DNA of 14,367 nt from a bacterium (GTDB lineage Bacteria > Planctomycetota > J058 > JAJDCP01), in contig JAUIEM010000258.1 of NCBI GenBank assembly GCA_030428695.1, forward strand, positions 1 through 14,367. Reading direction: 5' to 3'. Made by a program: the position numbers and the translations under genes. The notes beneath the pieces were generated by a model. That model was not told the origin of the DNA and did not search any database. It saw nothing but the letters and a program-made list of their open reading frames with translations. Positions 1 through 14,067 of this stretch are shown one piece after another. Position 1 is the first letter of the stretch; every line of letters begins with the position of its first letter.

Positions 1-2
1 TG

Positions 3-938
<936 letters not shown>

Positions 939-994
939 CGCCCGCTCTCCGCGCTCCGCTCTCCGCTGCACTCGCTGCCTCGTGCCCTCGCCCC

Positions 995-1028
995 CCCCGG
1001 CTTCGGAGGGTCCGGCCCGAAGCCGGGG
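995..1028. terminator. Strong hairpin, probable bidirectional terminator
   Basis: A perfect 12-bp inverted repeat, CCCCGGCTTCGG (995-1006) and CCGAAGCCGGGG (1017-1028), has a 10-base loop. It lies between the convergent ends of the kinase (938) and the thioredoxin-fold gene (1038), where a shared terminator is expected. Neither side has a clear T-tract, so rho-independent action is inferred from position and stem strength. The rest of the 939-1037 gap is pyrimidine-rich and contains an 11-base direct repeat, CCGCTCTCCGC (942-952 and 956-966). Confidence 0.6.
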
Positions 1029-1037
1029 AGGCGCATC

Positions 1038-1277
1038 TCAGCTCAGGTCTGCCAGCGACGCGCCGAAGTTGATGTGAAACGGCCGCCCGTCCAGGACGAC
1101 GGCCGGAACCGACTGGACTCCAGCCTCGCGCGCCTCGGCGATCCGGCCCTTGTCCTGGCCGAGGTGCACCACCTCGACGTCGACACGGGTCGGGTCGAGC
1201 AGGCTGGCGAGCTGCTGCTCCGCCTCGACGCAGACCGGGCATCCGGCGTGGAAGAAGGTCGCTTGGAACTTGCTCAT
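1038..1277 (-). CDS. Small thioredoxin/glutaredoxin-fold protein, CPVC active site
   Basis: A 79-residue protein with the size and layout of a minimal glutaredoxin-like thioredoxin fold: first beta strand (FQATFF), a Cys-Pro-Val-Cys redox motif at residues 13-16 (HAGCPVCVEAE), then the conserved cis-Pro context SVPAV (Pro58) next to the active site. The likely role is cytosolic dithiol-disulfide exchange; the partner is unknown. The start at 1277 is chosen because GAGGAG lies 8 bases upstream of that ATG; a GTG three codons earlier (1286) would overlap the ribosome-binding region. It is transcribed divergently from the MarR-type regulator across a palindrome-bearing control region, so it is probably that regulator's target. 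No signal peptide is visible. Assignment to the fold is firm; which thiol pathway it serves is unknown. Confidence 0.85.
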   Translation of the reverse strand: MSKFQATFFHAGCPVCVEAEQQLASLLDPTRVDVEVVHLGQDKGRIAEAREAGVQSVPAVVLDGRPFHINFGASLADLS

Positions 1278-1314
1278 CGATCTCACTCCTCATAACGGTT
1301 GCAGTGCAGAACAA

Positions 1315-1343
1315 ATAGTATCGACTCGATACCACCAACCGAA
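1315..1343 (-). promoter_or_regulatory. Candidate promoter of the thioredoxin-fold gene
   Basis: On the minus strand, TTCGGT (1343-1338) and TACTAT (1320-1315) are spaced by 17 bases. The -10 matches consensus at 4 of 6 positions and the -35 is weak. The perfect palindrome at 1318-1332 lies in the spacer and overlaps the -10, which fits repression by the neighbouring MarR-type protein. Confidence 0.4.
1318..1332. promoter_or_regulatory. Operator 1: perfect 15-bp palindrome, candidate MarR site
   Basis: GTATCGA-C-TCGATAC is a perfect 7+1+7 inverted repeat in the AT-rich divergent region between the MarR-type gene and the thioredoxin-fold gene. MarR dimers typically bind dyads of this size that overlap promoters of their own gene and of the divergent gene. 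It sits inside the candidate minus-strand promoter. The assignment is inferred from position and symmetry. Confidence 0.6.
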
Positions 1344-1363
1344 GGATACAGCATCGCGGAGCG

Positions 1364-1392
1364 TGTACAAGATCATTTCGCCTCGATATTAT
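1364..1392 (+). promoter_or_regulatory. Candidate promoter of the MarR-type gene
   Basis: TGTACA (1364-1369, 4 of 6 to the sigma-70 -35) and TATTAT (1387-1392, 5 of 6 to the -10) are separated by exactly 17 bases. Transcription would start near 1400, leaving a leader of about 30 bases before the ATG at 1430. The local AT-richness stands out strongly from the surrounding DNA. Operator 2 overlaps the spacer and the -10. Confidence 0.55.
1375..1389. promoter_or_regulatory. Operator 2: imperfect copy of the MarR palindrome
   Basis: ATTTCGC-C-TCGATAT matches operator 1 at 11 of 15 positions, with the right half-site nearly identical (TCGATA). Its centre (1382) is 57 bp from that of operator 1 (1325). 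It overlaps the candidate -10 of the MarR-type gene, so binding here would give autorepression. The left half is degenerate, suggesting a weaker site. Confidence 0.45.
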
Positions 1393-1429
1393 ATTTTCCG
1401 TCCGCAGGGCACATGGACTGGAGGCCTGC

Positions 1430-2011
1430 ATGAGCGGTGACGAGCTTCGACGGGTGCACGAGCTGCTGGAGCGGATCGGCAACGTCCTGCGCGCGGAGGC
1501 CCGCGGCGTCGACGGGGCGCTGCAGCCGGTCCAGGTCCAGGCGCTCGCGTACCTCGCCCGGGCCAACCGCTACAGCAACACCCCGGCAGCCCTCGCCGAG
1601 TACCTCGGGATCACGCGCGGCACGGTGTCACAGACGGTCGGCGTGCTCGAGCGCAAAGGGCTGCTCGCACGCACACCCGACCCCAAGGACGGCCGCAAAT
1701 CGCATCTGCGGCCGACCCCGGCCGGGCAGCGGCTGCTGCGCGAGGCCGTTCCGGCGCCGGCGCTGCGCGAGGCGCTCGGAGAGGACGCCGCGGCGGCCCT
1801 GGCCTCGCAACTCACCGCGCTGCTGGCCGGGCTCCAGCGCCAGCGCGGCGGGCGCGCGTTCGGGGTCTGCGCGAGCTGCCGCCACCTCCGGCGCGAGGCC
1901 GACGGCACCCGCTGCGGCCTGACCGGCGAGCCCCTCCGCGCCGAGGACACACAGCAGCTCTGCCGCGAACACGCGGCGCCCTCTCCGGACCCCCACGCCC
2001 AGAACCCTTGA
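1430..2011 (+). CDS. MarR-family regulator with C-terminal four-Cys tail
   Basis: A 193-residue winged-helix DNA-binding protein. The MarR core spans about residues 5-140; the helix-turn-helix is in AALAEYLGITRGTVSQTVGVLERKGL (about 54-79), followed by the wing with the conserved DPKDGRK (84-90). Beyond the usual MarR length is an extra tail of about 50 residues with C147-x2-C150, C162, C178 and an adjacent His (CREH, H181). This spacing suggests a bound metal or Fe-S centre, or a thiol switch; that is inference. The start is supported by GGAGG five bases before the ATG. It is divergent from a CPVC thioredoxin-fold gene, with two related palindromes between them, consistent with autoregulation and control of that gene. 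It lies 80 bases upstream of the cupin-NRPS block, and whether it also controls that block is open. Confidence 0.9.
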   Translation: MSGDELRRVHELLERIGNVLRAEARGVDGALQPVQVQALAYLARANRYSNTPAALAEYLGITRGTVSQTVGVLERKGLLARTPDPKDGRKSHLRPTPAGQRLLREAVPAPALREALGEDAAAALASQLTALLAGLQRQRGGRAFGVCASCRHLRREADGTRCGLTGEPLRAEDTQQLCREHAAPSPDPHAQNP

Positions 2012-2035
2012 GGCCCCGTCCGCGCCGGTTCCCTG

Positions 2036-2063
2036 TTGACGCCCGCCGCCAGGTGCGCATCAT
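2036..2063 (+). promoter_or_regulatory. Possible promoter for the cupin-NRPS block
   Basis: TTGACG (2036-2041, 5 of 6 to the -35) and CATCAT (2058-2063, 4 of 6 to the -10) are separated by 16 bases in the 80-base gap after the MarR-type gene. Predicted transcription would start near 2070, about 20 bases before the preferred cupin ATG at 2092. Neither operator palindrome recurs here. The -10 is weak, so read-through from the MarR-type gene remains possible. Confidence 0.35.
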
Positions 2064-2091
2064 GGACCGGGCCCCCACACGGAGCCAGCCG

Positions 2092-2598
2092 ATGTCCGAC
2101 AACGTGATCAACGTCGAGGACGCCCCCGAAGAGGGCGAGATCGACGGGCCGATCGGCCACTTCTACAAGGTCCTGACCCCGTCGATGGAGCGCCTCGGCC
2201 ACCTCGGCGTCAACCAGACCCGCGTCCCTCCCGGCCAGGTCGCTGCCCCCTTCCACGCGCACCTGCGTGAAGACGAGGTGTTCTTCGTGCTGTCCGGCCG
2301 CGGGGTGCTGCGCTACGGCGACGAGCTGCGCGAGCTGCGGGCGGGGGACTGCGTCTCCTGCCCGGCGGGAAGCGGCAAGGCGCACCAGTTCGCCAACCCC
2401 TTCGATGAGGATCTGGTCTACCTCGCGATGGGCTACAACCATCCCCATGAGGTGTGCGTCTACCCGGACAGCGGCAAGACCATGGTCCGCGGGCTGCGGA
2501 AGATCGGCACCCTCGAGCCCCAGGACTACATGCACAACGAGCCGGCCGCCCCGAAGATCCTCGAGCTGTGGAAGCAGGCCGAGGGTCCGCCCGCGTGA
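2092..2598 (+). CDS. Single-domain cupin protein
   Basis: A 168-residue protein with one cupin beta-barrel. Motif 1 is around residues 48-69, with the metal-ligand pattern H55-x-H57-x4-E62 (HAHLREDE, then VFFVLSGRG). Motif 2 is GDCVSCPAGSGKAHQFAN (85-102), giving the fourth ligand H98. The set is complete, so it should bind a divalent metal. Cupins of this size act as small-molecule isomerases, dioxygenases, lyases or binding proteins, and the sequence does not say which. The ATG at 2092 is preferred because GGAG lies seven bases upstream; in-frame starts at 2062 (ATG) and 2008 (TTG) exist but have weaker support. The stop overlaps the next gene's GTG by four bases (GTGA), placing it first in a translationally coupled block ending in an NRPS. 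A role in making or sensing that product is inferred from context. Confidence 0.85.
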   Translation: MSDNVINVEDAPEEGEIDGPIGHFYKVLTPSMERLGHLGVNQTRVPPGQVAAPFHAHLREDEVFFVLSGRGVLRYGDELRELRAGDCVSCPAGSGKAHQFANPFDEDLVYLAMGYNHPHEVCVYPDSGKTMVRGLRKIGTLEPQDYMHNEPAAPKILELWKQAEGPPA

Positions 2599-3530
2599 GA
2601 GCCTTCGCCTGCGACAGCTTCAGCCTGCCCCTGCCGGAGGGCCATCGCTTCCCGATGGACAAGTACCGGCGCGTCCGCGAGAGCCTGCTCGCCGACGGCG
2701 TGCTGCGGCCCGACCAGATCGGCCGGCCGCCCGCCGCCGACGACGCGGCGCTCGCCCTCGCCCACGACACGGAATACCTGCGCCGGGTAGTCGACGGCGC
2801 GCTCGACGAGAAGGAGGTGCGACGGCTGGGCTTCCCCTGGTCCCCCGCCCTGGTCGAGCGCTCGCGGCGCTCGGTCGGAGGCACCCTGGCCGCCTGCCGG
2901 GCGGCCCTGCGCGAGGGGGTGGCGGTCAACCTTGCCGGCGGCACCCATCACGCATCCCGGGGCCGGGCCCAGGGCTACTGCGTGTTCAACGACGCGGCGG
3001 TCGCCGCGCGGGTGTTGCTGGAGGAAGGGCTCGAGCGGGTCGCGGTGCTCGACGCCGACGTCCACCAGGGCAACGGCACCGCGGAGATCTTCGCCGACGA
3101 GCCGCGCGTCTTCACGTTCTCGATCCACGGCGCCCGCAACTTCCCCTTCCACAAGGCCTCGAGCGACCTGGACATCGGCCTCCCCGATGGCACCGAGGAC
3201 CGCGCCTACCTGCGGGCGCTCGAGGACGGCGTGCGCGAAAGCCTCGCCCGCAGCCGGCCCCGGCTCGTGATCTACAACGCCGGCGCCGACCCCTACGTCG
3301 GTGATCGGCTCGGCCGCCTGGCCCTGAGCCGCGACGGATTGCGGCGCCGCGACGCGCTCGTGCTGTCGCTGTGCCGCGCTGCCGGCGTGCCGGTCGCGGT
3401 GACGATGGGGGGCGGCTACTGCCCCGAGGTCGCGGAGATCGTCGCGATCCACGTCGAGACGGTGCGCCAGGCGCTGCGTGTCTGGCAGGCCTGGCGGGCG
3501 GCGGAGGCACGGACGGGCAGCCCGGCATGA
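2595..3530 (+). CDS. Histone-deacetylase-family zinc amidohydrolase
   Basis: A 311-residue member of the HDAC/AcuC/acetylpolyamine amidohydrolase superfamily, hydrolysing an acetyl- or acyl-amide with an active-site zinc. Landmarks: LPLPEGHRFPMDKY near the start (11-24), the His pair in GGTHHA (H118, H119), DADVHQGNG with ligands D155 and H157, the third ligand D232 in NAGADPYVGD, and the transition-state Tyr in GGGY (Y275). All catalytic residues are present and the length suits the bacterial family. The GTG start at 2595 overlaps the cupin stop by four bases and begins exactly where family homology should begin; no ATG fits. Its stop overlaps the next ATG (ATGA). Many bacterial members are stand-alone enzymes of uncertain substrate. 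Here, coupling to an NRPS suggests action on an N-acyl building block or product, which is inference. Confidence 0.9.
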   Translation: MRAFACDSFSLPLPEGHRFPMDKYRRVRESLLADGVLRPDQIGRPPAADDAALALAHDTEYLRRVVDGALDEKEVRRLGFPWSPALVERSRRSVGGTLAACRAALREGVAVNLAGGTHHASRGRAQGYCVFNDAAVAARVLLEEGLERVAVLDADVHQGNGTAEIFADEPRVFTFSIHGARNFPFHKASSDLDIGLPDGTEDRAYLRALEDGVRESLARSRPRLVIYNAGADPYVGDRLGRLALSRDGLRRRDALVLSLCRAAGVPVAVTMGGGYCPEVAEIVAIHVETVRQALRVWQAWRAAEARTGSPA

Positions 3531-4282
3531 GCGCGACCTTCCTGGGCCCGCCCGACGCGCAGCTGTTCGCGCGCTTCCATCCGGGCCGGGGGCGCCCGGG
3601 GGTGCTGGTCTGCCCGCCTCCGGGGCCGGGTGGGCTGCGCTTCCACCGTCCCCTGCGGCGGCTGTGCGAACAGCTCGCCGGCCGCGGGCTGGCGGTGCTG
3701 CGCTTCGACTTCCGCGGCACCGGCGACGCGGCCGGAGACTTCTGCGACGCCGACCTCGAGACCTGGAGCGAGGACCTGCGCCGGGCCGCCGACGCCCTGG
3801 TGCGGATGGCCGGCTGCGCACGCATCGGCCTGCTCGGCCTGCGGCTCGGCGCCAGCCTGGCCTGCCGCCTGGCTGCCGAGCGCAGCGACGTCGCGGCGCT
3901 GCTCCTGTGGGATCCGGTCGCCGACGGCGAGGCCTGGCTCGCGGGCCTGCGTCGGGAGCAGCAGCGGATGCTCGCGACCGCCCACGTGCGCGGCGGCCCG
4001 CCCGAGCCGGGCGAGCTGCTCGGCTTCGACTGGAGCCCGCGGCTGCTCGCGGGAGTCGAGGCCCTCGACCTGTGCGCCGACGCCGCCTCCACGCCGCCCT
4101 GCCTGGTGCTCGAGACCGACCCCGCCCTGCCCCTGGGGAAGGTGGCGGAACACCTCGGAGCGCGCCTCGAGCGGCGTCCGGATCCCGCCCTGTGGCGCTG
4201 GTACGAGAGCTTCCGCGGCGCCGTGCCGCGGCCCTCGCTGCTGCGGCGCTGCGTCGCCTGGCTCGACGAGGAGCTGCGGTGA
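3527..4282 (+). CDS. Alpha/beta-hydrolase-fold protein 1 (nucleophile replaced by Arg)
   Basis: A 251-residue alpha/beta-hydrolase-fold protein. Fold markers are the oxyanion-region loop CPPPGPGG (29-36), the strand and turn VLRFDFRGTGDA (57-68), the nucleophile elbow GLLGLRLGASLA (101-112) and the acid-bearing strand LLLWDPVADG (125-134, D129). At the elbow the usual G-x-S-x-G reads G-L-R-L-G, so the Ser nucleophile is replaced by Arg106 and ordinary esterase chemistry is unlikely. I recall a similar GLRLG elbow in one of the two hydrolase families associated with exosortase A loci, which also sit beside an acyl-CoA ligase; no exosortase is in this window. The start is the ATG in the ATGA overlap with the preceding gene. 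Its stop overlaps the GTG of a second, different hydrolase-fold gene. Possible roles are an inactive partner subunit or an acyl-binding scaffold. Confidence 0.85.
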   Translation: MSATFLGPPDAQLFARFHPGRGRPGVLVCPPPGPGGLRFHRPLRRLCEQLAGRGLAVLRFDFRGTGDAAGDFCDADLETWSEDLRRAADALVRMAGCARIGLLGLRLGASLACRLAAERSDVAALLLWDPVADGEAWLAGLRREQQRMLATAHVRGGPPEPGELLGFDWSPRLLAGVEALDLCADAASTPPCLVLETDPALPLGKVAEHLGARLERRPDPALWRWYESFRGAVPRPSLLRRCVAWLDEELR

Positions 4283-5130
4283 GCGAGCGGGTCGTCGAGT
4301 TCACCGCCGAAGGGGCGCCGGCGCTGATCGGCGTGCTCCACAGCGCGCCGCGCCCGGCGGAGGTCGGCTGCGTCTTCCTCGACAGCGGCCTCGCCCCACG
4401 GGTCGGGCACTACCGGCTGTACGTGCGGCTGGCGCGGGAGCTCGCGACGGCGGGCTTCCCCTGCCTGCGCTTCGACTTCTCCGGCGTCGGCGACAGCGCG
4501 CCGCGCACCGACGGACGCACCGCCGACGAGGCGGCGATCCTCGAGACCCGGGCGGCGATCGAGGTGCTCGGCTGCCGACGGGCCGTGCTGCTCGGGGTCT
4601 GCATGGGGGCCCGGCAGGGCTTCCGCATCGCCCTCGTCGAGCCGCGGGTCGCCGGCCTCGCCCTGATCAACCCGCGCGGCCACCTGCACGAGGGGCCGGC
4701 GGCCGGGCTGAAGCTGCGGGCGCTCGTCGGCCACGGCCTGCGCCTGAGCCTGGCGAGCAGCTTCGCCACCCGTGCCCGCGACACGCTGCTCGCCGGGGAC
4801 GCGGACCTCGGCCGGATCGGGCGCATCGGCCGCCAGCTCCGGGCCGGCGACCTGCTGCCCGGCTGGGGTCGGGCGGCGCGGAGGATGCTCCGGGCGCTCG
4901 GCCGCGGGCCGGTGCTGCAGCTGCACGCCGAGGCGGACGAGGGGCTCGACTACCTGCGCGCCGCCCTCGGGCCCGGGCTGTGGTGGATGCGGCGGCGCGC
5001 GGACTTCGAGCTCGTCCGCATCGCGGGCAGCAACCACACTTTTTCCCAGCTGTGGAGCCAGCGCCGCCTGCTGGCGGAGATCGGCGCCTGGATGCGGAGA
5101 CGCTTCGCGGGCCCTGCGGAGGCACGATGA
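4279..5130 (+). CDS. Alpha/beta-hydrolase-fold protein 2 (probable Cys nucleophile)
   Basis: A 283-residue alpha/beta-hydrolase-fold protein. It shows the N-terminal strand GCVFLDSG (30-37), the turn LRFDFSGVGDSAP (63-75), a nucleophile elbow LLGVCMGARQG (104-114), a strand LALINPRG (127-134) and a C-terminal GSNHTF (250-255). The elbow is G-x-C-x-G, placing Cys108 where Ser normally sits, as in dienelactone hydrolases; Asp220 (LHAEADEG) and His253 could complete a Cys-Asp-His triad. It is therefore plausibly an active thioesterase, acyltransferase or peptidase-like enzyme. It begins at a GTG overlapping the previous stop (GTGA), and its stop overlaps the NRPS ATG (ATGA). Because that NRPS has no terminal thioesterase, off-loading or editing of the carrier-bound product is the most economical role. 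That is inference, and no specific substrate is recognisable. Confidence 0.87.
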   Translation: MSERVVEFTAEGAPALIGVLHSAPRPAEVGCVFLDSGLAPRVGHYRLYVRLARELATAGFPCLRFDFSGVGDSAPRTDGRTADEAAILETRAAIEVLGCRRAVLLGVCMGARQGFRIALVEPRVAGLALINPRGHLHEGPAAGLKLRALVGHGLRLSLASSFATRARDTLLAGDADLGRIGRIGRQLRAGDLLPGWGRAARRMLRALGRGPVLQLHAEADEGLDYLRAALGPGLWWMRRRADFELVRIAGSNHTFSQLWSQRRLLAEIGAWMRRRFAGPAEAR

Positions 5131-8100
5131 CGATCGCGGAAGGTCTGGCCGCGCGGGCCCGGGAGAATCCCCACGCCCCCGCCCTGCTCGCCCCGGACCG
5201 CGAGGTCCTGAGCCGCGACGCCCTCGTCGCCCAGCTGCGGCGCGTGCGGAGCGGGCTGCGGGCGCTCGGCATCGGGCGGAACGACCGGCTCGCCTGCGTG
5301 CTGCCGCAGGGGCCGGACGCCGCCGGCGCCTTCCTGACCCTGGCCTCCTGCGCCGCCTTCGCGCCGCTCAACCCGGCCTACCGCGAGGCGGAGCTCGACT
5401 TCTACCTCAGCGACCTCGCCCCGGCCGCCCTGGTCGTCCCCCCCGGCGAGGCCGCGGCGGCGCGGGCGGTCGCCGGCCAGCGCGGGATCCCCGTGCTCGA
5501 GCTCTTCCCCCAGGCCGCCGCCGGGGCCTTCCGCCTGCGCGGGGCGACCGGCCGCCCGGCCAGCGCCGACGGGGCCTGCGCGGCGGACGACGTCGCGCTG
5601 CTCCTGCACACCAGCGGCACGACCGCGCGGCCGAAGCTCGTGCCCCTGCGCCAGCGCAACCTGTGCGCCTCGGCCCGCGCGATCGGGGCGACCCTCGGCC
5701 TGGAGCGGGAGGACCGCTGCCTCGAGCTGATGCCGCTGTTCCACATCCACGGCCTGATCGGCGCGCTCTTGTCGTCGGCGCTCGCGGGCGGCTCGGTGGT
5801 GTGCCCGCCCGGCTTCTTCGCGCCGCGCGTCTTCGCCTGGATCGAGGACTTCACGCCGACCTGGACCAGCGCCGTGCCGACGATGTACCAGGCGCTGCTC
5901 GCCCGCGCCGAGGCGCACGCCGCCCTGCTCGCGACGCGCCCGCTGCGGCTCCTGCGCTCCTCCTCGGCCGCGATGCCGCCGACCGTGATGGCGGCGCTCG
6001 AGCGGGTGTTCGGAGCGCCGGTGATCGAGAGCTACGGGATGACCGAGGCGAGCCACCAGATGGCGAGCAATCCGCTGCCGCCAGGGGTGCGCAAGCCGGG
6101 CTCGGTCGGTCCCTCGGCCGGTCCGGAGCTGCGGGTGCTCGCGGCCGACGGCGGCGAGGCGGGCGTCGGAGAGGTCGGCGAGGTGGTGATCCGGGGCCCG
6201 GGGGTGACGAACGGCTACGTCGAGAATCCGGCGGCGAACGCCGCGGCCTTCACGGACGGCTGGTTCCGCACCGGCGACGAGGGGCGCCTGGACGCGGACG
6301 GCTACCTGTTCCTGACCGGGCGCATCAAGGAGATCATCAACCGCGGCGGCGAGAAGATCTCCCCGCGCGAGATCGACGAGCGGCTGCTCGCCCATCCGGC
6401 CGTCGCCCAGGCGGTGTGCTTCGCGCTGCCCGACCCCCGGCTCGGCGAGGACGTCGCGGCGGCGGTGGTGCTGCGCGCCGGGGCAGAGGTCGAGGCGGCC
6501 GCGCTGCGGGCCTTCTGCGGGGAGACCCTGGCGGCGTTCAAGGTGCCGCGGCGCATCGTCTTCCTCGACGCGATCCCCAAGGGACCAACGGGGAAGCTCC
6601 GCCGCATCGGCCTCGCCGCCCAGCTCGGGCTGGCCGCGGAGGAGGTGGTGGAGGAACCGGGACGGGCGCCGGAGGGGGAGGCGGAGGAGCGGGTCGCGGC
6701 GCTGTGGCGGGAAGTTCTCGAGCGCGACGAGGTCGGCGCCGAGCAGGACTTCCTCGCCGCCGGCGGCGACTCGATGCTCGCCACCCTGCTCGTCGCCCGG
6801 CTCCGCGCCGCCTTCGGCCGGGAGCTCGACGTGCTCGCCCTGTTCGAGGCGCCGACCGTCGCCGCCCAGGCGCGGCTGCTCGCCGCCGCCCCGGAGCAGG
6901 CGGAGGCGCCGCTCACCCCGCGGACCGAGACCGGCCCGGCTCCGCTCAGCGAGGCCCAGCGCCGGCTCTGGATCATGGCCCGGCTCGCCCCCGAGGCCCC
7001 GCTCCTGCATCGGCCGCTGCTGCTGCGGCTGACCGGCCGGCTCGACGCGGGGAAGCTCAAGGACGCGCTGCGGGCGCTGCTCGAGCGCCACCGGGGGCTG
7101 CTCTGCGGTTTCCCCGAGGAGGCACCCGGCCGGCCGGTCGCGGTCGAGGGCGCGAGCTTCCTGATGCTGCCCTGCGAAGATCTGCGCGGGCTGCCGCGGG
7201 AGGCCCGCCACGCCGCCCTGCACGAGCGCGCGGTGCGCGACGGGCGGACCCCGTTCGCGCTCGGCTCCGGGCCGTTGGTACGGGCCTGGCTCTACCGCCT
7301 GGACGAGGCCGAGCACGCGCTGTTCCTGGTCTTCCACCATCTGGTCTTCGACGGCTGGTCCGAGGGCGTGCTGGTGCGTGAGCTCGCGGCCCTCTACGCC
7401 GGCGACCCCTTGCCGGAGCTACCCCTGCAGGTCGCCGATGTCGCCGCCTGGCAGGCGGGCCGGGCAGGCGAACGCGAGCAGGCGCTGGCCTGGTGGCGCG
7501 AGCAGCTCGCCGGTTGCCCGTCGCTCGCGCTGCCCCTCGACCATCCGCGACCCCCGCAGCCGAGCTACCGGGCGGGCCGCTGCCGCCTGCTGCTGCCCTC
7601 CTCCCTGGCGCGCCGGCTCGAGAAGCTCGGCCGCGAGGCGGGGGCGACCCTGTACATGGTGCTGCTCGCGGGCTTCGGCGCGCTGCTCGGACGCACCGCC
7701 GGCCAGCGCGACGTCGTGCTCGGCACGCCGGTGTCCGGGCGCACCCGCACCGAGACCGAGGGGCTGATCGGCTGCTTCATGAACATCGTCGCGCTGCGCA
7801 CCCGCATCGACGAGGGGATGTCCTTCCACGCCCTGCTCGCGGCCGTGCGCGAGGCCACCCTGGGAGCCCTCGCCCACCAGCTCGTGCCCTTCGACCGCCT
7901 GGTGCAGGCGCTGCGTCCGGCGCGCCACGCCGGCCGCTGGCCGCTGTTCCAGGTGCTCTTTCAGCTGCGCAACCACGCGCGCGTGCTGCGCACCGACGGC
8001 GCCGTGCGCTTCGAGGTCGCCGACTTCGACCCGGGGCTGATCGGGGGCCTCGACCTCAGCCTGGACGTCGAGACGGGTCCGAGCGGGCTGCTCTGCACCT

Positions 8101-10049
8101 TCGACTACGCCATCGAGCTCTTCGAGGCGGGCACCATCGAGGCCCTGGCGGAGCGCTACCGGCGGCTGCTCGAGGCCGCGCTGGAGGCTCCCGCGCGGCC
8201 GGTGCAGCGCCTGCCCTGGCTGCCCGAGGAGGAGCGCCAGGCGGTGCTCGCCCTCGGCCGCGGCCCCCGACGGGAGATGCGCGCCTCCCTGTTGCACCGC
8301 GACTTCGAGCGCTGCGCCGCCGAGCACGCCGAGCGACCCGCCCTCGACGGGCTCGGCGGCGTGCTCTCCTACGGCGCCCTGGACCGCCGCGCCTGCCGGC
8401 TGGCGGCGCGCTTGCAGGAGCGCGGGGCGGGGCCGGGGCGCGTGGTCGGCATCCTCTCCGCCCCCGACCGCGACTTCGTCACGGGCGTGCTCGCGACCCT
8501 GAAGACCGGCGCGGCGTGGCTTCCCCTGGACGCCCGCCAGCCGGCGGCGCGGATCGCCTCGCTGTGTGAGCGCGCGCGCCCCTGCGCGGTGCTCGTCGGC
8601 CCGGCGCTGGAGGCGCTCCTGCCGGCCGCCACCCCGCGCCTGGACTTCGAGCCCGGGGAAGGGCCGGGGCTGGCGAAGGAGGACTGCGCCGCCGAGGTCG
8701 ACGACCGCGCCTACGTGATGCCGACCTCCGGCTCGACGGGCGCCGCGAAGCTGGTGGCGATCCCCCACCGCGCGATCGTCGAGCAGCTCGACTGGCGGCG
8801 GACCGCGGTCTCGCTTCCCGGAGGACGGGTCCTGCTCGCCGCCTCGATCAGCTTCGACGACTCGGTCTGGGAGCTGTTCGTGCCCTTGAGCACCGGCGGC
8901 ACGGTGGTGCTTCCGCCTGCCTCGGGGGTGTCCGACCTGCACGGCCTCGCCCGCCACGTCGCGCGCTACGACGTCGAGCACATGTGCCTGGTGCCGTCCC
9001 TGCTGCGCCTGTTCCTCGCCGTCCTGCCTCCGGAAGGGCTGCCACGCTTGCGGATGGTGACCAGCGGCGGGGAGGTGTTCGAGACCGGGTTGCTCGCCCA
9101 GGTCCGCGCAGCCCTTCCGGACGTCGCGATCTTGAGCGGCTACGGGCCGACCGAGGCGACGATCGCGGTCTCTTTCTTCGACGGCCGGACCGCGGGCGAC
9201 GGCCCGGCGCACCTCGGGCCGCCCCGCGCCAACGTGCGCCTCTACATCCTCGACGACGAAGGCGCGCTGCTGCCGCGGGGGCTGGTCGGCGAGCTGTACA
9301 TCGCGGGGCCCGCCCTCGCGGACGGCTACCTCGGGGACCCGGAGGAGACCGCGGCGCGCTTCTTGCCCGACCCCTTCGCCGGCGAGGGGAGGATGTACCG
9401 GACCGGCGACTTCGTCCGCTGGCGCAGCGACGGCAACCTCGCGTTCCACGGCCGGCGCGACCGCCAGGTCAAGCTCGCCGGCGTGCGCATCGAGCTCGGC
9501 GAGATCGAGGCCGCGCTGCGCGCCTGCCCCGGCGTGCGCGACGCGGCGGCGGCCCTGCTCGACGGGCCGCCGCGGCTCGGCGCCTGGGTGGTCGGCGAGC
9601 CCGTCGGCGACCTGCGCGCCCGGCTGGCCGAGCGGCTGCCCGCGGCGATGCTGCCCGCCTCCGTCGAGCGCGTCGCCACCTTGCCCCGCACCGCGAGCGG
9701 CAAGCTCGACCGGGACGCCCTGCGCACGCTCGAGCCCCTCCCCGCGCGCCCGCGACCGCCCCTGCAGGGGGAGACCCAGCGACAGCTCGGGGCGTTGTGG
9801 CGCGAGCTGCTCGGCATCGATGTCGGGCCGAGCGACAACTTCTACGACGCGGGCGGCCACTCCCTGCTCGCGATCGAGTGCGCGGCCCGGATCGAGTCGC
9901 AGCTCGGCGTACAGCTCGAGGTGCGCCACTTCGCGACCGCGACCCTCGCCCAGCTCGCCAGCCTGTGCGAGCAGCGCCAGCAGGACGCGAAGCCCGGGCT
10001 GGCCGGGCGCCTGTTCGGAAGGCTGAAGCGGGCGCTCGGGGGGGAGTGA
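5127..10049 (+). CDS. Nonribosomal peptide synthetase, acyl/A-T-C-A-T, no release domain
   Basis: A 1640-residue NRPS. (1) AMP-forming ligase, about 1-500: phosphate loop HTSGTT (161-166), YGMTEASHQM (from 303), RIKEIINRGGEKISP, and the C-terminal Lys490 in GPTGKL. Its wording is closest to oxalyl-CoA-synthetase/Pcs60-type acyl ligases, so it may load an organic acid rather than an amino acid. (2) Carrier T1, Ser549 in GGDSM. (3) Condensation domain, about 606-1030, with intact HHLVFDG (737-743). (4) Adenylation A2, about 1050-1530: PTSGSTG (1199-1205), FDDSVWE with Asp1244 at the amino-group-binding position, YGPTEA (from 1339), GKLDRD (Lys1526). (5) Carrier T2, Ser1579 in GGHSL. After T2 only a short basic amphipathic tail follows (GRLFGRLKRALGGE), with no thioesterase, reductase or epimerase. 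The start is the ATGA overlap, with GGAGG four bases upstream. Prediction: a two-unit acyl-amino-acid or dipeptide-like product, released by a partner protein. Confidence 0.95.
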   Translation: MTIAEGLAARARENPHAPALLAPDREVLSRDALVAQLRRVRSGLRALGIGRNDRLACVLPQGPDAAGAFLTLASCAAFAPLNPAYREAELDFYLSDLAPAALVVPPGEAAAARAVAGQRGIPVLELFPQAAAGAFRLRGATGRPASADGACAADDVALLLHTSGTTARPKLVPLRQRNLCASARAIGATLGLEREDRCLELMPLFHIHGLIGALLSSALAGGSVVCPPGFFAPRVFAWIEDFTPTWTSAVPTMYQALLARAEAHAALLATRPLRLLRSSSAAMPPTVMAALERVFGAPVIESYGMTEASHQMASNPLPPGVRKPGSVGPSAGPELRVLAADGGEAGVGEVGEVVIRGPGVTNGYVENPAANAAAFTDGWFRTGDEGRLDADGYLFLTGRIKEIINRGGEKISPREIDERLLAHPAVAQAVCFALPDPRLGEDVAAAVVLRAGAEVEAAALRAFCGETLAAFKVPRRIVFLDAIPKGPTGKLRRIGLAAQLGLAAEEVVEEPGRAPEGEAEERVAALWREVLERDEVGAEQDFLAAGGDSMLATLLVARLRAAFGRELDVLALFEAPTVAAQARLLAAAPEQAEAPLTPRTETGPAPLSEAQRRLWIMARLAPEAPLLHRPLLLRLTGRLDAGKLKDALRALLERHRGLLCGFPEEAPGRPVAVEGASFLMLPCEDLRGLPREARHAALHERAVRDGRTPFALGSGPLVRAWLYRLDEAEHALFLVFHHLVFDGWSEGVLVRELAALYAGDPLPELPLQVADVAAWQAGRAGEREQALAWWREQLAGCPSLALPLDHPRPPQPSYRAGRCRLLLPSSLARRLEKLGREAGATLYMVLLAGFGALLGRTAGQRDVVLGTPVSGRTRTETEGLIGCFMNIVALRTRIDEGMSFHALLAAVREATLGALAHQLVPFDRLVQALRPARHAGRWPLFQVLFQLRNHARVLRTDGAVRFEVADFDPGLIGGLDLSLDVETGPSGLLCTFDYAIELFEAGTIEALAERYRRLLEAALEAPARPVQRLPWLPEEERQAVLALGRGPRREMRASLLHRDFERCAAEHAERPALDGLGGVLSYGALDRRACRLAARLQERGAGPGRVVGILSAPDRDFVTGVLATLKTGAAWLPLDARQPAARIASLCERARPCAVLVGPALEALLPAATPRLDFEPGEGPGLAKEDCAAEVDDRAYVMPTSGSTGAAKLVAIPHRAIVEQLDWRRTAVSLPGGRVLLAASISFDDSVWELFVPLSTGGTVVLPPASGVSDLHGLARHVARYDVEHMCLVPSLLRLFLAVLPPEGLPRLRMVTSGGEVFETGLLAQVRAALPDVAILSGYGPTEATIAVSFFDGRTAGDGPAHLGPPRANVRLYILDDEGALLPRGLVGELYIAGPALADGYLGDPEETAARFLPDPFAGEGRMYRTGDFVRWRSDGNLAFHGRRDRQVKLAGVRIELGEIEAALRACPGVRDAAAALLDGPPRLGAWVVGEPVGDLRARLAERLPAAMLPASVERVATLPRTASGKLDRDALRTLEPLPARPRPPLQGETQRQLGALWRELLGIDVGPSDNFYDAGGHSLLAIECAARIESQLGVQLEVRHFATATLAQLASLCEQRQQDAKPGLAGRLFGRLKRALGGE

Positions 10050-10057
10050 GGGGGGAG

Positions 10058-10118
10058 CCGATTCCGATTCCGATTCCGTTTCGGAAGGATACCGACCTCG
10101 ATCGCGATCCGACCGACG
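10058..10118. repeat. Degenerate hexamer tandem repeat after the NRPS
   Basis: CCGATT occurs in three and a half perfect tandem copies (10058-10078) and then decays through related hexamers (TTTCGG, ATACCG, ACCTCG, ATCGCG, ATCCG) to about 10118. It lies between the NRPS stop and the next promoter. No coding frame with family features crosses it. The function is unknown; it could be slipped-strand expansion or a short intergenic repeat family. Confidence 0.6.
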
Positions 10119-10120
10119 CC

Positions 10121-10150
10121 TTGTCCCCTTCGCGCCGGCGCCGCTATAGT
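10121..10150 (+). promoter_or_regulatory. Probable promoter of the DUF1800-DUF1501 operon
   Basis: TTGTCC (10121-10126, 4 of 6 to the -35) and TATAGT (10145-10150, 5 of 6 to the -10) are separated by 18 bases. The predicted start near 10157 leaves about 20 bases before the ATG at 10177, including a GGAGG. The isolated TATAGT in otherwise GC-rich DNA, right before a new transcription unit, supports the call. Confidence 0.55.
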
Positions 10151-10176
10151 GGAGGAAAGCTGGCGGAGGACGCGCG

Positions 10177-11373
10177 ATGGCCGAGTTGTTGACCGGGCCG
10201 GAAGCCAACGCCCACCTGATGCGGCGCGCCGGCTTCGGCCACTCCCCCGCCAGCCACGCGGCCTGGAGCGGGCTGCCCTACGAAGAGCTGGTCGAGCGGC
10301 TGCTCGGGGCGCTGTCCGAGGCGCCTCCGGAGGATCCCCTCGGCTTCGACGTCTACGAGCCCGGCGCGATCCAGCAGCTCTGGCTCGAGCGCATGGTCGC
10401 GGGCGCGGCGCCGCTGGCCGAGAAGCTCGCCTTCTTCTGGCACGGCCACTTCGCGACCTCGAACGTCAAGGTCCGCGACCCGGCGCTGATGTGGCAACAG
10501 TACCGCCTGCTGCGGCGGATGGCGGGCGGACGCTTCCGCGAGCTGCTGCTCGGCGTCTCGCGCGACGTCGCGATGATCCGGTGGCTCGATGGGAACTCCA
10601 ACCGCAAGGGCCAGGCGAACGAGAACTACGCCCGCGAGCTGCAGGAGCTGTTCTCCCTCGGGCGGGGCAACTACACCGAGACCGACATCCGCGAGATCGC
10701 GCGGGCCTTCACCGGCTGGGGCAGCCGTCACCACAGCTTCCGCTTCCGGCCGGAGTTCCACGACGAGGGCACGAAGACCATCCACGGCCAGACCGGGAGC
10801 TTCGACGGCGCCGACGTCGTCGACATCCTCGTCGCCCTGCCCGCCTGCCATCGCTTCATCGCCGGTCAGCTGCTGCGCTTCTTCTCGCACCCGGACCCGA
10901 CAGAAGAAGAGATCGACGGCCTCGCCACGACCTTCCGCGACAACGGCGGCGACCTGACCGCGACCCTGCGCGCGCTGTTCCTCGCCCCGGCCTTCCGCGA
11001 CCGCGCGCGCTGGCGCTGCCTGGTCAAGAGCCCGGTCGAGCTCGCGGTCTCGAGCCTGCGTGCGGCCGGCTTCTCGACCGTCCCGACCTGGGTGCACGGC
11101 GCCCTCGACGCGATGGGGCAGATCCTGTTCCGGCCGCCCTCGGTCAAGGGCTGGCCCTCCGGGGCGACCTGGCTGTCGAGCGCCGGCGTCGTCGAGCGCC
11201 TGCGGGTCGCCAGCCGGCTCGCCGGGCAGACCCCGATGGCGGCCGTCGCCCAGCTCGAGACGGTCGCCCTGGACGGGCAGGTGCCCGCGCTCCTGCGCGA
11301 GGCGCTCGAGGGCCTGTCGTCCCGCGAGCGGGTCGGGCTGTTGCTCGGCTCCCCTGAATTCCAACTCTGCTGA
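10177..11373 (+). CDS. DUF1800 family protein
   Basis: A 398-residue protein that matches the DUF1800 family along its whole length. Signature segments are LMRRAGFGHSP (14-24), KLAFFWHGHFATS (83-95), the highly conserved SNRKGQANENYARELQELFS (141-160) and ETDIREIARAFTGW (168-181), plus SVKGWPSG near the C-terminus. The biochemical function of the family is not established. It is usually encoded directly beside a DUF1501 gene, as here, 16 bases upstream of it. No signal peptide is visible at this N-terminus, whereas its partner carries a twin-arginine signal, so export on its own is not evident. The start has GGAGG seven bases upstream and a promoter immediately before it, so this is the first gene of a new transcription unit rather than part of the NRPS block. 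Confidence 0.95.
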   Translation: MAELLTGPEANAHLMRRAGFGHSPASHAAWSGLPYEELVERLLGALSEAPPEDPLGFDVYEPGAIQQLWLERMVAGAAPLAEKLAFFWHGHFATSNVKVRDPALMWQQYRLLRRMAGGRFRELLLGVSRDVAMIRWLDGNSNRKGQANENYARELQELFSLGRGNYTETDIREIARAFTGWGSRHHSFRFRPEFHDEGTKTIHGQTGSFDGADVVDILVALPACHRFIAGQLLRFFSHPDPTEEEIDGLATTFRDNGGDLTATLRALFLAPAFRDRARWRCLVKSPVELAVSSLRAAGFSTVPTWVHGALDAMGQILFRPPSVKGWPSGATWLSSAGVVERLRVASRLAGQTPMAAVAQLETVALDGQVPALLREALEGLSSRERVGLLLGSPEFQLC

Positions 11374-11389
11374 TCCCGGAGGACGTCCG

Positions 11390-12547
11390 ATGGCCCTGAA
11401 CCGCCGCAGCTTCCTGACCCGCGCCCTGGCGAGCGGCCTGGTGCTCGCCCTGCCGCGCGGGCTCTACGCCGACGAGCCGGCCGCGGAGGCGAAGACGCTC
11501 GTCCTCCTGCACCTCAACGGGGGCAACGACGGCCTGAACACCGTGATCCCCTACGCCCACCCGACCTACCGCGCGCTGCGCCCGACCCTCGGCATCGACC
11601 GCCGGCAGGTGCTCGACGTCGACGACGAGCTCGGGCTGCACCCGGCGCTACGCCCCTTCCTCGGCCAGCTCGAGGCGGGGAACCTCGCGGTCGTCAACGG
11701 GGTCGGCTACGACAACCCCGACTTCAGCCACTTCCGCGCGACCGAGATCTGGCACACCGGCCAGCCCGAGCAGACGCCGAACGAGGGCTGGATCGGCCGG
11801 GCGCTGACCGAGCGGGACATCTCCGCCCCGGTGCGCGCGATCGCCCTCGCCAAAGAGCAGCCCCTCAGCTTCGCGGGCGCGGGCACCGGCGTGATCACGA
11901 TGACCGACTTCGGGCGCCTGCGGGTGCCGCGCGAGCAGAGCCGGGCGGCCGCCCTCTACGGGCAGTACAGCGACCTCGAGGGGCTGCGGGAAGAGGTCGG
12001 CAGCGCGGGGGCCGAGGCCCTCGACGTCGCCGCCCGCATCGCCCGGCTGCGGCCGGCCAGCGGGCCGTTCTACGGGCGCCTGGGGGACGACCTGCGCAAG
12101 ACCGTCGCGCTGCTCGACGCCGACCTGCCCCTCGAGGTGATCGCGCTGAGCTTCGGCGGCTTCGACACCCACGCCAACCAGCGCGGGGCGCACCAGGGCC
12201 TGCTCGCGCAGCTCGCGAACAACCTCAACGCCTTCCAGGACCAGCTCGCGGAGCGGGGCCTGGCCGACCGGGTGATCACGGTCGTCTTCAGCGAGTTCGG
12301 CCGGCGCCCGCGCGAGAACGCCTCCGGCGGCACCGACCACGGCTCGGCCGGCCCGATGTTCGTGCTGTCTCCCGCGGTGCAGGCCGGCTTCCACGGCGCG
12401 TATCCCGACCTCGACGTGCTCGAGCGCAACAACTTCGTCCACACCGTCGACTTCCGCTCGGTCTACGCCGCGCTGCTCGAGAAGGCCTTCGGGCTCGACC
12501 CGCAGCCGGTGCTCGGCGCCCACGCGGCCCTGGAGATCTTCGCATGA
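11390..12547 (+). CDS. DUF1501 family protein with twin-arginine signal
   Basis: A 385-residue DUF1501 protein, a family related in fold to sulfatases and alkaline phosphatases. The N-terminus LNRRSFLTRALASGLVLALP carries a twin-arginine motif (R5-R6) and a hydrophobic stretch, so folded export by Tat is expected, possibly after cofactor loading. Family landmarks are LNGGNDGLNT (42-51), LGLHPAL (81-87), FSHFRATEIWHTG (112-124), FGGFDTH (255-261), VVFSEFGRRPREN (298-310) and GTDHG (314-318). The Asp and His residues in the last blocks resemble the metal-site residues of the alkaline-phosphatase superfamily, but activity is not established. ATG at 11390 is chosen over upstream in-frame codons because GGAGG lies seven bases before it and the Tat signal begins there. 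It forms an operon with the DUF1800 gene. Confidence 0.94.
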   Translation: MALNRRSFLTRALASGLVLALPRGLYADEPAAEAKTLVLLHLNGGNDGLNTVIPYAHPTYRALRPTLGIDRRQVLDVDDELGLHPALRPFLGQLEAGNLAVVNGVGYDNPDFSHFRATEIWHTGQPEQTPNEGWIGRALTERDISAPVRAIALAKEQPLSFAGAGTGVITMTDFGRLRVPREQSRAAALYGQYSDLEGLREEVGSAGAEALDVAARIARLRPASGPFYGRLGDDLRKTVALLDADLPLEVIALSFGGFDTHANQRGAHQGLLAQLANNLNAFQDQLAERGLADRVITVVFSEFGRRPRENASGGTDHGSAGPMFVLSPAVQAGFHGAYPDLDVLERNNFVHTVDFRSVYAALLEKAFGLDPQPVLGAHAALEIFA

Positions 12548-12680
12548 GCTTGTCTCCGCATTCCGCGAGCGCGTCGCGTAGCGCCGGGCCGCAAGATCGA
12601 GGTGTCCCTCGGAGAACGAAGACGAAGAGCTTGCGAGCCCGCCGCAAGCGAGGCCCCGTGGAATGGGAGACACGCTCATG
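12543..12680. repeat. Long interrupted inverted repeat bracketing an intergenic element
   Basis: The left arm CATGAGC-T-TGTCTCC-G-CATTCC (12543-12564) pairs with the right arm GGAATG-GGAGACA-C-GCTCATG (12660-12680): 20 base pairs with one mismatch and one bulged G. The arms enclose 95 bases and overlap the DUF1501 stop on the left and the next gene's ATG and ribosome-binding region on the right. Inside are smaller hairpins, CGAGG-tgtc-CCTCG and GCTTGCG (12629) with CGCAAGC (12649). It could be a structured leader or a miniature repeat element; copies elsewhere cannot be checked here. Confidence 0.6.
12629..12649 (+). terminator. Possible terminator or leader hairpin
   Basis: GCTTGCG (12629-12635) and CGCAAGC (12643-12649) form a perfect 7-bp stem with a 7-base loop, about 80 bases after the DUF1501 stop. 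No T-tract follows. It may end the DUF1800-DUF1501 transcript, or be an inner arm of the larger inverted repeat. Confidence 0.3.
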
Positions 12681-13955
12681 AGACTGCTGCCCGTCCTGCT
12701 CTGCTGCGCGCTGCTGGTCGCGGACGACGCCGCGCTCCAGCTCGGTCCCGGAGACTTCGAGCTGCTCCCCCTCGACGAGCTCGAGCGCGGCCGGCTGTTC
12801 CGCGAGCACGGCGCGCTCGTCGAGCGCATGCAGGCCCTCGGCCGGCGCCACGCCCAGCTCGGCCGCCAGCTCGACGAGCTCGAGCCGGACAGCGACGCCC
12901 AGGCCCGGGTCCGCACCCAGCAGGCCGAAGTCGCCGGCAGGCTCGCGCCGCTGTTCGGCGAGCTGACCGCGATCCTGCGGGCGGAGTTCGGCATCGACGA
13001 CGCGCACCTCGCGCGGGTCAAGGCCGCTCCCGTCGGCGAGCGCCGGGTCGCCCGCTACGCCCACGCCCAGGTGCTCGCGCACGGCGCGCTCAGCGAGGCG
13101 GAGACGCGCCTCTTCGAAGCCCTGGTCGCCGCCCTCGACGGCGCGCAGAGCGGCTGGCGCGCCTCGCGCGCGCGGCTCGAGCAGCTCGGCCTGGAGGAGT
13201 CTGCGCGCCGCGCGGTCGAGCAGGGGCTGGCGGCCCAGGAGCGGGAGGCCGAGCAGCGCTTCTGGATCGTCGTCGACATCGTCCTCAGCGATGCCCAGAC
13301 CGCCGCGATCATGGCGGAGCTTCCCTACGACTTCACCCGCATCCGCGACTTCCCCGGCCACCTCCTGCGGCTGCCGGGCCTCAGCCCCTCCCAGACCGCC
13401 CGCCTGCAGGCCGGCATCGCCGAGATCGAGGCCGAGAGCGCGGCGGACGACACCGAGGTGCGGCGCCTGGGCCAGGAGCTGCGGCGCCGCGACCTCGAGC
13501 GCGACGAGCGGGCGGCCCTGCAGGAGGCGCTGCGCGAGGCGCGCGGCCGGCTGGCCAGCCTGCGCGAGGAGGTGTTCGCCCGGCTGCAGGGATCCCTGAG
13601 CGCCGAGCAGCGCCTCGCCCTCGCCGCGATTCCGCCGTACGTCTCCCCCAACGACCGCAACCTGCGCCCGGAGCGCCTGTTCGCCGGCCTCGAGCTGTCG
13701 CCGGCCCAGGAGGCGACCCTCGCGTCGATGCGCGAGGAGGTCGACGCCCAGCGCCGCGCCTACCAGGAAGAGACGCGCGAGATCCAGCGGATGGGCGCGG
13801 ACTACGGTCCCGACTCGCCCCAGCAGATGATGATGCAGTCGATGATGATGGGCGTGCAGGCCGAGGGCCAGTCGACCCTGCGCGAGGCGGTGCGCCACGT
13901 CCTGCTCGAGGTGCTGCGCACCGAGCAGGTCAGCGACTGGATGCTCGGCCTGTAG
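12678..13955 (+). CDS. Exported helical protein with LSxxQ motifs (hypothetical)
   Basis: No family is recognised with confidence. The 425-residue product starts with a short signal-peptide-like segment (MRLLPVLLCCALLVA, probable cleavage before DDA), so it is likely periplasmic. The rest is almost all charged alpha-helix with coiled-coil character (about 28-115 and 240-305). Four short motifs recur: LSDAQ (203), LSPSQ (235), LSAEQ (307) and LSPAQ (340), each at the start of a helix, recalling the LTxxQ motifs of CpxP/Spy-type periplasmic chaperones. A Met-rich patch (MMMQSMMM, 384-391) lies near the C-terminus and could bind metal or hydrophobic surfaces. ATG 12678 is chosen because GGGAG lies just upstream at good spacing; ATG 12663 is an in-frame alternative that would overlap that ribosome-binding site and spoil the signal peptide. 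The start codon lies in the right arm of the inverted repeat at 12543-12680. Confidence 0.8.
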   Translation: MRLLPVLLCCALLVADDAALQLGPGDFELLPLDELERGRLFREHGALVERMQALGRRHAQLGRQLDELEPDSDAQARVRTQQAEVAGRLAPLFGELTAILRAEFGIDDAHLARVKAAPVGERRVARYAHAQVLAHGALSEAETRLFEALVAALDGAQSGWRASRARLEQLGLEESARRAVEQGLAAQEREAEQRFWIVVDIVLSDAQTAAIMAELPYDFTRIRDFPGHLLRLPGLSPSQTARLQAGIAEIEAESAADDTEVRRLGQELRRRDLERDERAALQEALREARGRLASLREEVFARLQGSLSAEQRLALAAIPPYVSPNDRNLRPERLFAGLELSPAQEATLASMREEVDAQRRAYQEETREIQRMGADYGPDSPQQMMMQSMMMGVQAEGQSTLREAVRHVLLEVLRTEQVSDWMLGL

Positions 13956-13997
13956 CGCCATGGGTGAGCAGCGCAGAAGGCTCGAAGCGCCCGAGAT

Positions 13998-14043
13998 CTG
14001 CGGCGTCCGGGTCCGCAGCAGGAATCCCGGTGAATCAGCCGGG
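13998..14043. other. Two small hairpins in the gap before the UbiA-family gene
   Basis: CTGCGG (13998-14003) and CCGCAG (14013-14018) form a 6-bp stem with a 9-base loop. CCCGG (14026-14030) and CCGGG (14039-14043) form a 5-bp stem with an 8-base loop. They could terminate the upstream transcript or structure the leader of the downstream gene; no T-tract or known riboswitch core supports one choice. The remainder of 13956-14067 shows nothing else. Confidence 0.3.
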
Positions 14044-14067
14044 TAGGAAGAAGCTCCGGGAGACCCG

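Follow-up and report, generated by a model that had tools for sequence, protein, structure and literature searches.

Release of a finished chain by a separate, trans-acting protein is already known for nonribosomal peptide synthetases (NRPSs): penicillin-binding-protein (PBP)-type thioesterases such as SurE, which combine a Ser/His/Asn/Lys tetrad with a lipocalin-like domain, act in this manner (PMC11735501). Type I thioesterase domains (PF00975) occupy the end of the assembly line itself, and the models TIGR03101 and TIGR03100 (exosortase A hydrolases 2 and 1) describe two different alpha/beta hydrolases. Here we analyse a 14,367-nucleotide stretch of planctomycete DNA (GCA_030428695.1, contig JAUIEM010000258.1, positions 1 to 14,367; hereafter the window), in which positions 2092-10049 hold five genes in the order cupin, histone deacetylase (HDAC)-type deacylase, HydA, HydB and an NRPS with two adenylation (A) domains, two peptidyl carrier protein (PCP) domains and one condensation (C) domain (A-PCP-C-A-PCP). 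The conserved unit in this block is HydA-HydB together with an NRPS or polyketide synthase (PKS) that has no thioesterase, and we favour, with some reserve, the reading that the pair is a two-protein, Cys-based module that releases products in trans from such assembly lines.

HydA and HydB compared with described hydrolases

HydA (3527..4282, + strand; Pfam Hydrolase_4) and HydB (4279..5130, + strand; Pfam Abhydrolase_1/Hydrolase_4) are predicted to have an alpha/beta-hydrolase fold: the structural matches of their AlphaFold models (mean pLDDT of 89.4 and 85.7, respectively) are alpha/beta hydrolases, and their Foldseek neighbours are mostly esterases, lipases and other general hydrolases. An earlier note, made from the letters of the window, had called both hydrolases non-canonical, which their elbows bear out: neither GLRLG (HydA) nor GVCMG (HydB) contains the serine of GxSxG, and PF00975 matches neither protein, nor the NRPS. 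At the nucleophile place HydA carries Arg106 (codon 3842-3844), and the G-x-R-x-G elbow has Arg in 96 of 98 domains, H40 being the sole strongly conserved histidine of the protein. HydB carries Cys108 (codon 4600-4602) and His253 (codon 5035-5037); Cys is found in the G-x-C-x-G elbow of 103/104 domains and the histidine is kept in 100/104 (the window is included in all three counts).

Among named models TIGR03101 and TIGR03100 come closest, and two proteins over the TIGR03100 cut-off also have a Cys elbow (GLCDGA). However, the window HydA scores 84 bits for TIGR03101 (cut-off 202.75) and the window HydB 96 bits for TIGR03100 (cut-off 168.45), the window and five tested pairs together span 84-127 and 84-106 bits for the two models, and the partner is an NRPS or PKS. 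As the curated cut-offs are not reached, we rejected membership in the exosortase A families. Among 50 pair-bearing genomes, exosortase (PF09721) is over its cut-off in 21, while the other 29, possibly incomplete drafts, show none; two of the 50 have a protein that exceeds the TIGR03100 cut-off, each time beside a separate, lower-scoring HydB.

From type I thioesterase domains the pair differs in being a separate two-protein module with Arg and Cys in place of Ser. It would share trans-acting release with SurE-like enzymes and differs from them in matching Hydrolase_4/Abhydrolase_1 with Cys or Arg. GrgF (6lzh) and BotH (6t6h), which we take to be natural-product hydrolase folds with unusual chemistry, share the fold of the HydA model at 17% and 19% identity and are not a pair. 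The literature that we searched contained nothing on a HydA-HydB-type pair with an NRPS or PKS, and a term search of Haft 2006 (PMC1569441) gave no match for 'hydrolase'; an Arg/Cys pair tied to thioesterase-less assembly lines is thus new as far as these searches reach. The earlier note could name no pathway for the block, and no described one has been named since, but the hydrolases do have named relatives in the two TIGR models.

Database searches that scored only candidates sharing most words yielded, at 1e-3, 56 relatives of HydA and 20 of HydB besides the window's own. In a tree the window HydB sits on a long branch and within no starred set, nearest by path to L002, L001 and Planctomycetota rows, and an assignment to a clade was rejected for this reason.

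The pair is linked to NRPSs and PKSs

A contig scan with the HydB alignment found 85 relatives, the best 80 of which were kept as loci. A draw within Planctomycetota, where 41 of 392 genomes had matches at 1e-10, contributed 20 further stretches, one per genome: leaving aside G001 and G009, which are among the scan loci, these came from the 18 best of the 41 and from G069 and G134. In the resulting 100 loci we judged 97 HydA domains of more than 60 bits from 94 loci, leaving out the window. HydA lies downstream of a same-strand open reading frame (ORF) that ends in a carrier in 67/97 cases, 65 of them within 200 bases (706 bases in L011 and 744 in L067), and is fused behind a carrier in five; by source, adjacent and fused cases amount to 63 + 4 of 81 in the scan loci and 4 + 1 of 16 in the Planctomycetota draw. 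The upstream ORFs, whose carrier stands 4-60 residues from the C-terminus, are mostly NRPSs or PKSs, with a few contig-end pieces and one lone carrier of 142 residues (L102). By record titles and taxonomy labels, the linked loci span 12 phyla (Planctomycetota, Chloroflexota, KSB1, Zixibacteria, Acidobacteriota, Pseudomonadota, Gemmatimonadota, Actinomycetota, Bacteroidota, Calditrichota, Nitrospinota and Myxococcota); most are draft metagenome-assembled genomes, and eight are Marinobacter.

Later samples, taken at 1e-30 from the phyla of G411 (Acidobacteria; 4/247 genomes) and G408 (Gemmatimonas; 18/249), contributed 18 new stretches, 12 of which have separate HydA and HydB; an NRPS or PKS stands upstream in 10 of these 12 (the exceptions being L150 and L157). 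L144 and L145 come from one genome, and the genome of L151 was already represented by L041. With the low-scoring members L108-L116 no NRPS or PKS module was detected, so that the link belongs to part of the family. The earlier note had proposed a search for the five-gene order in other genomes: the five-gene set was not met again, whereas HydA-HydB with a thioesterase-less NRPS or PKS recurs.

Five synthases carry HydA in the same polypeptide, at the usual position of a thioesterase: C-A-PCP-HydA in L006 and L058, C-PCP-HydA in L105 (where HydA is seen by its own profile and not by Pfam), AT-DH-KR-ACP-HydA in L030 (acyltransferase, dehydratase, ketoreductase and acyl carrier protein) and C-A-PCP-KS-AT-KR-ACP-HydA in L033 (KS, ketosynthase). 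HydA and HydB are single proteins in L069, L106, L107 and L112, and again in L149, L152, L153, L155, L156 and L159, the last six being ORFs of ~590-750 residues. The first kind of fusion ties HydA to the terminus of the assembly line, the second to its partner HydB.

Two further features were seen around the pair. The Marinobacter loci L050, L061, L062, L064, L066, L068 and L072 share several neighbouring ORF clusters; some of these, judged by eye only, resemble glycosyltransferases or acyltransferases and may point to a surface polymer modified by the NRPS. A phosphopantetheinyl transferase gene (Pfam) lies beside the pair in L073 (11607-12329, - strand); its ORF cluster recurs in 14/80 loci, the L073 member being the only one scanned.

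No thioesterase in the scanned parts of upstream synthases

The thioesterase scan covered 60 of the 67 carrier-ending upstream rows. Pfam searches of the last ≤1000 residues of 41 NRPSs found Condensation in 41, PP-binding in 41 and AMP-binding in 40, and neither a thioesterase nor a reductase; searches of ≤1900 residues of 19 PKS-like proteins (among which L027 is NRPS-type) found PP-binding in 19, ketoacyl synthase in 16 and no thioesterase. Nor was one found in the four Pfam-scanned upstream synthases of the ten from the later samples. Among the 19 PKS-like proteins, 14 match AMP-binding_C, and in L018 (2953-9219) and L142 (9679-15579) the terminal ACP of PKS modules is directly preceded by AMP-binding_C, the main AMP-binding domain being absent.

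Relatives of the window NRPS look different: many of the best 120 of 2836 carry PF00975, and in 10 of 12 inspected the C-terminus lies 259-324 residues beyond the last carrier motif. Eight stretches from Planctomycetota, each centred on a looser relative of A1-PCP1, gave no HydA or HydB match. Within these eight, four tails (in L163, L165 and L167) carry PF00975, L166 has an Ldh_2 domain at the contig end, and L164 ends in a bare carrier (see below).

These counts bear on whether HydA-HydB might instead be a proofreading pair, similar to a type II thioesterase, which would clear stalled carriers while release took another route. Standalone accessory hydrolases near NRPSs are usually editors. 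Yet HydA is fused behind the terminal carrier in five synthases, a thioesterase was seen in none of the 60 upstream synthases (parts of which were scanned), and PF00975, the usual editor, is already present within ~10.5 kb of HydB in 5 of 36 pair-bearing genomes (L003, L007, L015, L018 and L033, by eye), the other 31 showing none within that distance, where some contigs end sooner; across their whole length, 29 of the 36 genomes have PF00975. We consider proofreading unlikely. In L003 a standalone PF00975 gene (G001:C5:626899-627567) follows HydB by ~70 bases, so that the pair and a type II thioesterase can coexist.

A proposed release scheme and the evidence against it

What we observe behind the reading of HydA-HydB as a release module is the gene order, the adjacency across phyla, the absence of thioesterases from the scanned synthases, the HydA fusions behind a carrier and the conservation of residues; from these we infer complex formation, release chemistry and product, the genomic context being what points to action in trans. 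In the window, A1 would load an acyl group on the first PCP and A2 an amino acid on the second, and the C domain would join the two into an acyl-aminoacyl thioester. HydA, with a near-invariant Arg and no Ser nucleophile, would then bind the terminal carrier or a C-terminal tag of the synthase (see below) and present the thioester to HydB, whose Cys108 would attack it with His253 as the base, the product being released or transferred. The pair would thus probably supply the 'missing' release step of the window NRPS.

A number of observations weigh against this reading. As to residues, the triad acid of HydB is not conserved (D220 in 46/104 domains), the window HydA is devoid of the Glu that stands at position 35 in 91/98 domains, and the elbow residues themselves are replaced in L033 (Ser for Cys in HydB) and in L010 and L106 (Gly for Arg in HydA). 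As to linkage, 25 of the 97 HydA domains have neither an upstream carrier-ending ORF nor a carrier fusion (four of these are HydA-HydB fusions and some lie at contig ends), the link is weaker in the Planctomycetota draw (5/16), and no NRPS or PKS module lies upstream of the six HydA-HydB fusions L149, L152, L153, L155, L156 and L159. The loci are not independent, including as they do the eight Marinobacter and several near-copies; L154, from the later samples, ends in an aminotransferase domain instead of a carrier; and in the window the order is reversed, HydA-HydB preceding the NRPS instead of following it. The nearby PF00975 in the five genomes named above could itself perform release. L164, finally, holds a thioesterase-less NRPS of the window architecture that ends in a bare carrier with no tag, and its stretch has no HydA/HydB match; a bare carrier end is therefore not proof of release by the pair.

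A basic C-terminal tag on client synthases

The window NRPS ends in a basic amphipathic tag of 17 residues, GLAGRLFGRLKRALGGE (9996..10046, + strand), and the NRPS P0085, 71% identical to it, ends in GLGDRLLRGLRRVLRGE. Many client synthases likewise have a short basic hydrophobic peptide beyond the last carrier. With a pattern chosen after the tails had been seen ([LFIMVW]..[RK][LIM][FLMVIYT] in the last 30 residues), the tag was scored in 28 of 60 NRPSs and PKSs adjacent to HydA/HydB (27/39 with long tails, 1/21 with short ones) as against 3.1% of shuffled tails. It was also found in 59/775 locus ORFs of ≥400 residues, a set that contains the clients, and in 5/57 carrier-ending relatives of the window NRPS (from the best 120 of 2836 listed), P0085 being one of them. 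The genomic context of P0085 was not found: matches at 1e-100 occurred in 6/392 and 0/128 genomes, with a best identity of 56%. One of ten synthases from the later samples matched, a hit that is probably fortuitous, and by eye another two look similar. The five fusion linkers show no tag by eye, and L003, L005 and L007, unfused Planctomycetota relatives of L006, have one. Over 30 tags (28 clients, the window and P0085) the mean hydrophobic moment is 0.54, versus 0.31 in shuffles, and the mean charge +2.6. The tag may serve for docking or, given that it resembles the MinD tail, for anchoring in the membrane.

The second of these possibilities leads to another explanation, in which the tag would form a membrane-targeting helix of the MinD type and so take the synthase to the membrane, while the pair would pass the product from the carrier to an acceptor in the membrane (a lipid or polysaccharide precursor). 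Tags such as KGFLSRLFGG (L037), with the amphipathicity and charge just given, presumably resemble the MinD C-terminus, and an ORF cluster that recurs in 30/80 loci is glycosyltransferase-like by eye. The kin of the pair are associated with exosortase A by model name, and one TIGR03100 protein lies within an exopolysaccharide cluster (PMC3584217). Against this, the pattern is post hoc and builds in amphipathicity, 20 of the 21 short-tailed synthases are without the tag and the later samples gave only the one match in ten. Pfam-confirmed glycosyltransferases are confined to L026, L071 and L076, where no assembly line lies directly upstream, and none of ten scanned window genes is a polysaccharide gene. 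Transfer to a membrane acceptor therefore seems to us improbable.

Returning to release by HydA-HydB, we tentatively extend it to a widespread, so far undescribed off-loading system, in which a pseudo-hydrolase with an Arg elbow and a hydrolase with Cys would form a complex that unloads thioesterase-less NRPSs and PKSs in at least 12 phyla, many of them recruited via the basic amphipathic C-terminal tag, perhaps at the inner membrane, and in which the exosortase A hydrolases would put this chemistry to a sister use; the odds are somewhat against this extension in its entirety. If the pair does release products, the often unexplained unloading of thioesterase-less assembly lines would gain a recognisable pair by which genome miners could spot and finish clusters, a possible role in acting on carrier-bound groups would be suggested for the exosortase A-associated hydrolases, which have been annotated for long, and engineering would have a separable release module with a docking tag.

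Domains of the window NRPS

The NRPS (5127..10049, + strand; 1640 residues) has two AMP-binding, one Condensation and two PP-binding matches in Pfam, and no thioesterase or reductase, in keeping with the claim of the earlier note that this two-carrier synthase is without a release domain. With its C, A and PCP domains and with HHxxxDG (in the C domain) and GGxS read by eye, it qualifies as a modular NRPS. A1 (5142..6623, + strand) is an acyl-CoA-ligase-type adenylation domain that matches the FadD7 family model at residues 6-499 (1.3e-155, below the cut-off); its closest solved structure is the oxalate-CoA ligase 5ie0 (9e-110), and by eye it carries FHIHG, which we take to stand where amino-acid A domains have an FD motif. 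The likeness to oxalate-CoA ligase and the FHIHG together suggest that A1 likely activates a carboxylic acid. The first carrier (6687..6881, + strand; PP-binding, residues 521-585) and the condensation domain (6939..8246, + strand; Condensation, residues 605-1040) are followed by A2, an amino-acid adenylation domain (8304..9716, + strand; AMP-binding from residue 1060, the end set by us), which among solved structures is best matched by chains of linear gramicidin synthase A. Its code, read by eye at positions that we assume to follow GrsA numbering, is D-D-W-C-V-S-G-I-A-K, and a substrate prediction was rejected as there was no trusted match. The expected product is a small derivative of an N-acyl amino acid.

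The cupin and HDAC genes

The cupin (2092..2598, + strand; 168 residues; Cupin_2, 1.9e-17) and the HDAC-type Zn amidohydrolase (2595..3530, + strand; GTG start, 311 residues; Hist_deacetyl, 1.3e-61) open the block. By its Hist_deacetyl domain, Zn ligands and HH dyad, the latter protein is predicted to be a classical Zn-dependent deacylase, the motifs HH, DxH and GGGY having been read by eye, and its best solved relatives are 9rje and then VcHdaH (9gkv). VcHdaH is a lysine de-decanoylase and typifies sub-cluster 5b, long-chain deacylases with SGGYHH and GGGY foot-pocket motifs, and AcuC is tied to a lysine conserved in ANL enzymes, according to PMC11532494. The window HDAC has AGGTHH and GGGY by eye. 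Since these resemble the VcHdaH motifs, it could, as a guess from analogy, remove a longer acyl group; alternatively, by analogy with AcuC, it could deacetylate an A-domain lysine.

Whether the five genes might be one undescribed conserved pathway, with cupin and HDAC essential to it, can be judged from their distribution. The four coupled junctions of the block (see below) speak for such a pathway. However, phmmer at E ≤ 0.1 gave no match to the window cupin or HDAC among the ORFs of the 100 HydB-fetched loci, where a more distant cupin would escape; HDACs of the window kind occur in 34/294 genomes of the phylum of G009 (at 1e-60, with up to 61% identity), and in eight stretches (~±9.5 kb) at eight of the ten best-matching ones there is no match to the cupin, HydA, HydB or the NRPS domains. 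A five-gene pathway is thus very improbable, and the proposal of the earlier note that the five form a functional unit did not hold up as a conserved unit. We take cupin and HDAC as local additions specific to the window, with a role in tailoring or regulation such as N-deacylation of the product.

Operon structure and flanking genes

The window has a G+C content of 74.3%, and third codon positions reach 0.93-0.96 across all five ORFs of the block. The 4-base stop/start overlaps noted earlier are all exact (GTGA at 2595, ATGA at 3527, GTGA at 4279 and ATGA at 5127), and the start codons of HydA, HydB, HDAC and the NRPS are consistent with those of homologues. A consensus search of 900-11500 gave three promoter-like sites (0.1 expected in shuffles), which are consensus matches only: one before the MarR gene (1364-1392), one before the cupin (2036..2063, + strand; sigma-70-type TTGACG-16-CATCAT), one before DUF1800 (10121-10150) and none inside 2092-10049. 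The block, 80 bases from MarR and 127 bases from DUF1800, thus looks like one transcription unit, in agreement with the earlier suggestion that its proteins are made together. Compact, GC-rich operons often show such overlaps, which therefore support co-expression and not a single pathway.

On the + strand the window runs from a kinase end through the MarR regulator, the block, DUF1800 and DUF1501 to an ORF at 12663-13955 and one that runs off the end. The DUF1800 and DUF1501 genes, together with the relatives of the HDAC, themselves suggest that the window is of planctomycete origin. The MarR regulator (1430-2011, + strand), which has several cysteines near its C-terminus, is divergent from a thioredoxin-like gene (1038-1286, - strand), and between the two lies a perfect palindrome, GTATCGACTCGATAC (1318-1332; 0 expected). 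They have the look of a regulator that senses redox state and the gene it controls, set apart from the NRPS block. MarR is an unlikely regulator of the block, as the palindrome sits on the MarR/thioredoxin-like side and a promoter-like site of its own precedes the cupin. DUF1800 and DUF1501 (10177-12547), 16 bases apart and behind a promoter-like site of their own, form a pair of a type common in Planctomycetota.

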